A stretch of DNA of 45,225 bases from IMG/VR virus record IMGVR_UViG_3300012944_000031, positions 1-45,225 of that record; one strand, written 5' to 3'. The notes beneath the pieces are model-generated. The model worked only from the letters and a program-made list of their open reading frames with translations. It was not told where the DNA came from and ran no database searches. Positions 7,350-29,492 of this stretch are shown here, piece by piece. Origin of the DNA: a virus. Made by a program: the position numbers and the translations under genes. Numbering within the stretch: the stretch's first letter is position 1; every line of letters begins with the position of its first letter.

Positions 7350-7542
7350 GATGCAAGAGGTGATCGGCCGGCAAGATGAGCCGGTGAGAGGAAACCCGCG
7401 GGCGCCGGCCTCGTTCACTTGCGCGCTGCCTCCTAGCCGTCATGTTCAGGACGCGCAAACACGGGGTCTCGCCGGCCGATCGTGACCGCAGCGCCGGGGC
7501 TCTCAGAGTCTCACCGGCATCCGCGATCGCGCGCAGATTAGC

Positions 7543-27799: not shown

Positions 27800-27980
27800 A
27801 AAGCACCGCCGCTCGCGACCCACGGGAGACCGGAGCGGCGGTCCTTCCAAAGCCAAGCCGCCGCGACCCACGGGAGACCGGGCGGATAGTGAACCGGCGC
27901 AGATGCGCCAATCACAATCACACGCGCGCCTGCAAGGCCGCGTTCGGTCGCTGGCTTGCAGGGCTTTGGAGTTTCACCAC
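27800..27980 (+). other. Structured leader of the major capsid gene
   Basis: Untranslated 181 bp with three hairpins: 27806-27841 (8-bp stem CCGCCGCT/AGCGGCGG), 27858-27885 (CCGCC/GGCGG) and 27929-27962 (CCTGCAAG/CTTGCAGG). Hairpins 1 and 2 present the same 19-mer in their loops. Probably an mRNA control, processing or stability region. See findings. Confidence 0.65.
27815..27881 (+). repeat. Tandem 19-bp direct repeat carried in hairpin loops
   Basis: GCGACCCACGGGAGACCGG occurs exactly at 27815-27833 and 27863-27881 (48-bp period). Each is enclosed by a different but complementary stem, so the loop sequence is more constant than the stem. Confidence 0.8.
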
Positions 27981-29492
27981 ATGTCGAACTTTTCGGCCGA
28001 GACGCTCGCGGCAATTCGCGATGCGTTGAGCAAGGGCGCAGTGACCGGGTTGATTCCCGATGATCTGCTCAAAGCGTGGAATCAGTCCGCCTCTCAGACC
28101 ACCGGCATTACCGCTTATGATCTCGAGGGACCGGCGAAATCTTTCGTTCCCGTCATCACTCCGCTGCGCAACCGCATCCCGCGCGTCGGCGGCGGCACGG
28201 GCATCGCCACGAACTGGAAAGCGGTCACCGCGGTCAACACCGGCAAGACCGGCCTTGGCGTCGCGCAGGGCTTGCGCGCTCCCGTGCAAGCGGTCGCGAC
28301 GAAGGATTATACGGCGCCCTACAAGACGATCGGCCTCGAGGACTATGTGACGTTCGAGGCGGACCTGGCGGCCAAGGGCTTTGACGACGTCAAGGCGCTC
28401 GCGGTGCTCAACCTGTTGCGCGCCGTGATGATCGGCGAAGAGGGCTTGCTGGTCGGCGGCAATGCTTCGATTGCGCTCGGCACCGCCGGCACGCCGACGC
28501 TCGTCGCCTCCGCCTCGGGCGGCACGCTCGCCACCATCACGCTTTCCGTGATCGCGGTCGCGCTCACGCATGAGGCCTATGTTGCGGCCGATCAATCGCT
28601 CGTCTCGGCGACGTCGATACCTGTCTCGGGCAACCGCACGCTCGCCGACGGCAACGTGCAATTCTACAACGCCGGCACCGGGCAGAAGTCGGCGAATGCG
28701 ACCGTCGCCGTCACCGGCGCCACCGGCAGCGCGACGGCTTCGATCCCCGCGATCAATGGCGCGGTCGGATACGCCTGGTTCTGGGGTCTCGCCGGCGCGG
28801 AAGTTCTCGGCGCGATCTCGACAATCAACAGCGTCAAGATTATCGCCAACGCGACGGGGACGCAGACGCCCGCGTCGTTCACCGCGGACTTTAGCCAAAA
28901 CTCGTTCGTCTTCGACGGCCTGCTCTCGCAAATCTGGACTCCGGGTTCTGGCTCCTACGTTCTGCGTCTGGCGACCGGCGTTGCCGGTACCGGCACGCCG
29001 CTGACCGCGGACACCGAGGGCGGCGTGGTCGAGATCGACACCGCGTTGCAGTGGTTCTGGGACAACCTGCGTCTCTCGCCGACCGACATGTATATCGGTT
29101 CGGCCGCGCAATCCGCGATCTATAAGGCCATCCTGCAGGGCGGCACGAACACCGCGACACGATTCGTCATCAACGTCGACCAGGGCAACCTGAAGGGCGG
29201 CTTCATGGTGAAGTCGTACCTCAACAAGTTCACGATGGCCGGCGCGCAGGAAATCGGAATCCATCTGCACCCGAACATGCCGCCCGGCATGATCATGTTT
29301 TATACCGACCAGGTGCCGTACCCGCTTTCCAACGTCGCGAACGTGCTGCAGGTCAAGACCCGCCGCGACTACTATCAGCTCGAGTGGCCGCTCAAGACCC
29401 GCCGCTATGAGTACGGCGTCTATTCGGACGAGCTCTTGCAGAATTATTTCCCGCCGGCGTTCGGCGTGATCTCGAATATCGCCGGGGCTTAA
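27981..29492 (+). CDS. Major capsid protein, HK97 fold with an inserted beta domain, 503 aa
   Basis: ATG at 27981 with TTGGAG; the upstream open frame is the hairpin leader and is not translated. N-terminal MSNFSAETLAAIRDALSKGA, then PLRNRIPRVGGGTGIATNWK and IGLEDYVTFEADLAAKGFDD (A-domain and spine). Residues about 175-300 are Ala/Gly/Thr-rich and beta-like (TLADGNVQFYNAGTG...), an Ig-like insertion. The C-terminal part (IYKAILQGGTNTATRFVINV, KSYLNKFTMAGAQEIGIHLH, RDYYQLEWPLKTRRYEYGVY) is the conserved P/A-domain end. Size and place after the protease fit the main shell subunit. Confidence 0.9.
   Translation: MSNFSAETLAAIRDALSKGAVTGLIPDDLLKAWNQSASQTTGITAYDLEGPAKSFVPVITPLRNRIPRVGGGTGIATNWKAVTAVNTGKTGLGVAQGLRAPVQAVATKDYTAPYKTIGLEDYVTFEADLAAKGFDDVKALAVLNLLRAVMIGEEGLLVGGNASIALGTAGTPTLVASASGGTLATITLSVIAVALTHEAYVAADQSLVSATSIPVSGNRTLADGNVQFYNAGTGQKSANATVAVTGATGSATASIPAINGAVGYAWFWGLAGAEVLGAISTINSVKIIANATGTQTPASFTADFSQNSFVFDGLLSQIWTPGSGSYVLRLATGVAGTGTPLTADTEGGVVEIDTALQWFWDNLRLSPTDMYIGSAAQSAIYKAILQGGTNTATRFVINVDQGNLKGGFMVKSYLNKFTMAGAQEIGIHLHPNMPPGMIMFYTDQVPYPLSNVANVLQVKTRRDYYQLEWPLKTRRYEYGVYSDELLQNYFPPAFGVISNIAGA

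Follow-up and report, generated by a model that had tools for sequence, protein, structure and literature searches.

What does an identical sequence, presented twice on hairpins in the gap before a capsid gene, do for a phage? For each portal, tailed-phage head assembly consumes hundreds of capsid subunits, and it is often unclear how a single operon sets the capsid:portal ratio. The window analyzed here, a stretch of viral DNA of 45,225 nucleotides, contains head genes in the order terminase (21015), portal (22709), a 218-aa protein, protease, leader, major capsid protein (MCP), and head-tail connector genes. The repeat lies in the leader, bounded as follows.

25757..27799, + strand: head-protease-like gene, upstream (weak PHROG and Pfam Peptidase_S78_2 matches)
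27800..27980, + strand: leader, the 181-nt gap from protease stop to MCP start
27968..27971, + strand: Shine-Dalgarno GGAG of the MCP gene, read from the sequence
27981..29492, + strand: MCP gene, 503 aa (PHROG 13692, E 1e-123)

The protease-like product has 680 aa when counted from the start at 25757, and its frame is open from 25484; intergenic calls were made with a simple custom gene caller, with approximate gene starts. PHROG 13692 carries no function label, and the window MCP shares approximately 30% identity with proteins of the Arthrobacter phages Sonali and Mufasa8 that bear an MCP annotation. The AlphaFold model of the protein (pLDDT 53) was too poor for a fold search, so its identity as an MCP rests on sequence.

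The first-pass annotation had proposed three hairpins in this leader, with an identical 19-mer in the loops of the first two. The identical repeat in both hairpins is real and is present as two exact copies, each one base longer than described (20 nt, CGCGACCCACGGGAGACCGG). The described stem lengths were recovered for hairpin 2 (5 bp) and hairpin 3 (8 bp), and hairpin 1 was found to have 10 rather than 8 bp. The supposed open loop was not recovered: each copy instead consists of an 8-nt 5' bulge (GCGACCCA) and then CGG[GAGA]CCG, a small hairpin of 3 bp with a GNRA-type tetraloop.

27814..27833, + strand: repeat copy 1, CGCGACCCACGGGAGACCGG, exact 20 nt (19/20 in the relative L463)
27862..27881, + strand: repeat copy 2, identical to copy 1 (19/20 in L463)
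27805..27842, + strand: hairpin 1, outer stem of 10 bp (27805-27814 with 27833-27842)
Hairpin 1 interior, + strand: bulge 27815-27822, apical stem 27823-27825 with 27830-27832, GAGA loop 27826-27829 (tip kept in L463)
27858..27885, + strand: hairpin 2, outer stem of 5 bp (27858-27862 with 27881-27885)
Hairpin 2 interior, + strand: bulge 27863-27870, apical stem 27871-27873 with 27878-27880, GAGA loop 27874-27877

The outer stems differ between the two window copies. Throughout the window, the two copies are the sole matches to the repeat at up to 3 mismatches, as compared to 0.02 expected by chance, and dinucleotide shuffling of the leader gave no repeat of such length in 3,000 trials. One G[GRGA]C hairpin of this kind occurred in 2% of shuffled leaders and two in none. 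No terminator-like site (GC-rich hairpin with T-run, + strand) and no sigma-70 promoter by consensus was found in the window leader. A lone TTGACA at 27755 was rejected as a promoter element, being without enrichment in relatives. Resemblance to a T7-type promoter (TAATACGACTCACTATAGGGAGA core) was judged a coincidence: the window has CGACCCAC and then directly GGGAGACC, with the TATA part missing, and the resemblance is not common to relatives.

Conservation of the pair was examined in viral contigs by a scan for tandem CGGGRGACCG, which returned 59 stretches. This MCP was encoded at the match only in a near-identical record (L009) and in L463, the remaining stretches being coding, low-complexity, or unrelated. 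The MCP of L463 is 61% identical to the window MCP at the protein level, and its two copies (CGCGACCCTCGGGAGACCGG, at 7355 and 7410 of the locus) occupy the same place as the window pair, with 37 nt from the end of copy 2 to the MCP start. Both match the window repeat at 19/20 positions and carry the identical single change, A to T. Outside the copies, the two leaders align no better than shuffled sequence; the flanking DNA is 71% (MCP) and 63% (protease 3' end) identical. All copies in both phages retain the GAGA loop, and in each entire record they are the only ones at up to 2 mismatches. Outer stems pair in three of the four copies and differ in sequence (CUC/GAG and GCC/GGC in the window, CGCC/GGCG in L463 copy 2); L463 copy 1 could form an outer stem GCC/GGC, and its isolated fold picks a slightly different arrangement. 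The AGGAG of L463 is open. The window-type unit (GCGACCCWCGGGAGACCG; GCGACCCNCGGGAGACCG as the pattern form of the pair before the MCP) is known from only two distinct phages, in two copies at the same place. Since the tip is conserved on differing stems, the initial idea of selection on the loop holds for copies 1 and 2, and a recent duplication absent from relatives is contradicted by the presence of both copies in L463.

Broader searches added little to this pair. An exact 16-mer scan of viral contigs yielded, beyond L009, ten matches, all single copy and in chance contexts. The pattern TCGGRGACGA found one extra MCP leader (L472) and otherwise unrelated places, and a looser unit scan gave four stretches, all without this MCP. 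Phage and plasmid collections contained no DNA relatives of the window leader, a 25-nt plasmid match (E 0.6) being meaningless. The MCP reading frame is open across the entire leader back to 27757 (window 27757-27980), which would formally allow translation to begin upstream and yield a capsid protein with a longer N terminus. The idea that the leader encodes such an extension was rejected, given that the frame is interrupted by a stop in L463, where the copies are spaced 55 nt apart, which is not a multiple of 3.

A related theme, two to three hairpins capped by G[GRGA]C before the MCP, is found in approximately 36 of 155 nonredundant relatives. In the first 97 MCP-related loci, C-G[GRGA]C-G hairpins occurred in leaders at approximately 30 times background frequency. 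When all 256 tetraloops were counted on stems of at least 5 bp across 263 MCP loci (158 nonredundant), GGGA ranked first (38) and GAGA second (10) in MCP leaders, with the next counts at 4; other gaps (149 kb) gave 9 and 5, an approximately 26-fold enrichment in MCP leaders. The hairpins are strand biased, with 48 on the + strand and 18 of the mirror loop of GGGA on the − strand. When sites were chosen on GGRGAC alone, pairing of the flanks was more frequent than at control sites elsewhere, and at six of the seven positions it exceeded all shuffles. In an alignment of 16 two-hairpin leaders (A1), the first hairpin carries a purine-rich internal loop (RA/RA) that separates the outer stem from an apical stem of 3 bp, and the second hairpin is longer. 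Five measures of pairing and covariation in this alignment exceeded 500 of 500 shuffles and all slid registers, and six pairs showed double changes; pair 41-52, for example, is GU in 9 sequences, AU in 6, and CG in 1. Constant GRGA loops on covarying stems thus lend the loop-selection idea support from the wider class. Loop types within one leader agree in 43 of 53 pairs (27.5 when shuffled), counts that are inflated by relatedness among the phages, and in one leader both loops have changed to GGAA. Stems differ within a leader, so duplication of entire hairpins does not suggest itself as the cause. Spacing between hairpins varies from 14 to over 50 nt, and the tips lie 36-230 nt upstream.

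Position before this one capsid gene proved nearly exclusive. Viral sequences were scanned at the DNA level for CCGGRGACGG occurring twice within approximately 60 nt, with coding and low-complexity repeats removed. Among the 24 nonrepetitive, intergenic matches listed, 20 lay directly before this MCP gene, 1 directly after (L169), and 3 elsewhere; 18 of the 20 matches before the gene were confirmed by BLASTP, and the 2 at a contig end were judged by N-terminal residues. Among 21 phage records, the decamer occurs exactly twice in several long genomes (Polewnik, Strzyga, G009, G010, G012, G014, and G017). Both decamers are inside the leader in Polewnik and Strzyga, and in the five others they are 28-30 nt apart, like leader copies. 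In 385 alphaproteobacterial genomes, the tandem pattern occurred 9 times as compared to approximately 10 for the reversed control, with none near this MCP, and covariance-model matches there (23-29 bits) fell in unrelated sequence. Mapped onto the MCP tree, the motif (36 of 155 leaders) requires nine changes, at least eight on well-supported branches, and is found in one large clade as well as on separate branches, of which the window is one. Approximately 77% of MCP relatives lack the element, which is thus not essential for the gene. A search for a partner gene by neighborhood association gave no more than two genes linked to the clade, and the window was found to have neither.

Are the window pair and the main-clade hairpins one element? 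Position, number, the G[GRGA]C tip, and matched loops per leader are common to both forms, as is an internal loop topped by an apical stem of 3 bp (in the window as in the main-clade first hairpin). In its protease-MCP gap the window has two CGG[GAGA]CCG hairpins, each a G[GRGA]C hairpin with a stem of 3 bp or more, and both have the same loop, GAGA. A covariance model of the main clade (R1), under which members score 43-77 bits, gave at best 6.7 bits (E 1.5) on the window leader, below chance matches elsewhere in the window. Intermediates between the two forms were not detected above the reverse-complement control. Since R1 misses the window and no intermediates were found, the window-type form rests on two phages, and kinship between the forms is inferred; the window may be a variant that works like the main-clade element.

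With the hairpin pair kept in L463 and similar pairs before the same capsid gene in dozens of phages, the leader looks like an undescribed RNA control element. We consider it about an even chance that the pair acts in cis as a selected RNA element of the MCP mRNA, with its tips a putative double binding site for a trans-acting factor. A recognized tip is indicated by its constancy while stems turn over, and recognition as RNA rather than DNA by the G-U pairs and the strand bias. The constant tips, GCGACCC(A/T)CGG[GAGA]CCG in the window and CG[GRGA]CG in the wider class, would most likely be the double site; one factor would read the tip, and the stems would merely hold it up. As the motif is tied to one MCP family even in separate branches, the simplest putative ligand is the MCP itself or a head protein never separated from it. 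The association with the MCP could reflect inheritance, or hitch-hiking with a gene block, rather than binding by the MCP. Binding might tune MCP output post-transcriptionally, through translational feedback or through protection or processing of the capsid mRNA. A more tentative proposal, which we regard as rather doubtful, is that a family of tailed dsDNA phages controls capsid production by a dedicated double RNA operator, either tandem GRGA hairpins or the GCGACCCWCGGGAGACCG variant, read by a capsid or head-assembly protein and acting as RNA feedback on capsid dosage.

Among the rival explanations, the one with most support, albeit unlikely, is that the leader is a transcription attenuator or pause site, in which the last hairpin is terminator-like and a tip-bound, possibly antitermination-like factor controls read-through into the MCP gene. 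As in intrinsic terminators and attenuators, a T-run (T at 4 or more of 8 positions) comes after the last hairpin in 10 of 40 leaders, as compared to 0 of 43 earlier hairpins. Two leaders (L034 and L079) have a GRGA tip on a terminator-like stem with U5, and GRGA-lacking leaders often carry a terminator-like hairpin approximately 30 nt before the MCP start. However, most GRGA leaders, including those of the window and L463, lack a T-run after the hairpins, conserved tips are not a terminator feature, and a terminator ahead of the most abundant late product needs an extra assumption.

Quite unlikely, in our estimate, is a passive 5' stabilizer or processing boundary, whereby stable GNRA-capped hairpins, bound by no specific ligand, protect the capsid mRNA or part it from the message upstream. 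Such a role is consistent with the placement of stable hairpins between genes that differ greatly in dosage, and with ribosome-binding regions that are on average as open in GRGA leaders as in other leaders (0.57 versus 0.50 unpaired). A passive role nonetheless leaves unexplained the preference for GRGA over other GNRA loops or UUCG, the matched loops, and the 19/20 conservation that includes the bulge. Very unlikely is an RNA-RNA contact in which the tips dock with one another or with a receptor (GNRA tetraloop-receptor, CCC/GGG pairing), such that the leader folds or dimerizes without protein; copies are always paired, their loops are matched, and CCCWCGGG is nearly self-complementary between copies, yet no covarying receptor was identified and the hairpin spacing is variable. 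Chance, a recent duplication, or a DNA-level signal such as packaging or a recombination boundary (packaging and boundary signals had been listed as alternatives in the first-pass annotation) would suit short GC-rich inverted repeats with one exact tandem copy in the window, but is highly improbable given two copies conserved in L463, covarying positions whose G-U pairs exist only in + strand RNA (e.g., pair 41-52 of A1), and the bias of 48 + strand hairpins versus 18 mirror loops.

The predicted minimum-energy fold of the whole leader, at -96 kcal/mol, is more stable than shuffles (z -3.7). In this fold, hairpins 2 and 3 do not coexist and hairpin 2 is absent, its 5' arm being base-paired to the 3' arm of hairpin 3; forcing both hairpins costs approximately 10 kcal/mol by single-sequence thermodynamics.

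27929..27962, + strand: hairpin 3, stem of 8 bp (27929-27936 with 27955-27962)
27846-27854 (TCCAAAGCC) with 27962-27970 (GGCTTTGGA), + strand: long-range helix predicted by the single-sequence fold, covering the Shine-Dalgarno

Pairing as long as this helix arose in 92 of 3,000 leader shuffles. Neither hairpin 3 nor the helix covering the Shine-Dalgarno is present in L463, the one relative that keeps the repeat, and hairpin 3, which had been counted as part of the unit, probably lies outside the conserved element. Folding in isolation does not always give the two GRGA hairpins as the predominant structure. The GCGACC of the hairpin 2 bulge (27863-27868; also in the hairpin 1 bulge) is exactly complementary to GGTCGC at 27946-27951, near the tip of hairpin 3, so that a bulge-loop contact is possible, with hairpin 3 not being conserved.

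This arrangement is reminiscent of several known systems. In lambdoid nut sites, the boxB RNA hairpin is bound by the N peptide, which reads a GNRA-like loop on a stem that may vary; boxB is reportedly counted among GNRA-like cases. The elements described here are likewise small phage RNA hairpins with a GNRA-like loop, but they are paired tetraloops, with no pentaloops seen, and precede one structural gene rather than lying in early leaders. The coat-protein operators of ssRNA phages (MS2, Qbeta type) are bulged-A hairpins at the start codon. They too are mRNA hairpins beside capsid-related genes, and the capsid autoregulation suggested in the first-pass annotation would work likewise; in contrast, the present case concerns a tailed dsDNA phage, with two GNRA-type tips, putatively bound, 36-230 nt upstream. 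In mini-ykkC (guanidine-II), a single regulatory unit is built from two hairpins whose loops are the same and whose stems are free, a tandem arrangement seen here with a different loop (GRGA or GCGACCCWCGGGAGACCG). Rfam 15 gave no match at the gathering score for the window or 12 relatives, and a lax search of the leader gave only chance-level matches; a search of the open literature found no description of such an element. The element is a structured mRNA leader, unusual in its location and degree of exclusivity, and is undescribed in Rfam and in the literature searched. Phage genome annotation would gain an RNA motif not described before. As an element tied to one capsid family, with loop conservation and covariation, it occurs in the cultured Brevundimonas phage Polewnik, which makes the question directly testable; the Polewnik leader spans 27262-27395 of ON529863, and its host is Brevundimonas pondensis LVF1.

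Additional features were observed around this capsid gene. In a few relatives, GRGA hairpins also occur directly 3' of the MCP, before the next head gene (L169:8805-8848; L259; L052:6451-6466; L034:4128-4155). Long palindromes resembling mobile elements (GTCATTCCGG..CCGGAATGAC) occupy the protease-MCP gap in L035, L041, L046, L047, and L075, and repeats of approximately 60 nt (CCCCTTCGTGTTGTATCCACCCACCGGGTGGAGCAGGCATTTATGCC) occupy that of L080 and L081. In leaders lacking GRGA hairpins, the terminator-like hairpin approximately 30 nt before the MCP start is found in 26 of 118 on the + strand versus 6 on the − strand, often as CCCGG..CCGGG with T5-T6 (e.g., L018, L272, L320, L329, L333, L341, L347, and L382), a puzzling placement for a terminator, immediately ahead of the late gene with the greatest abundance.
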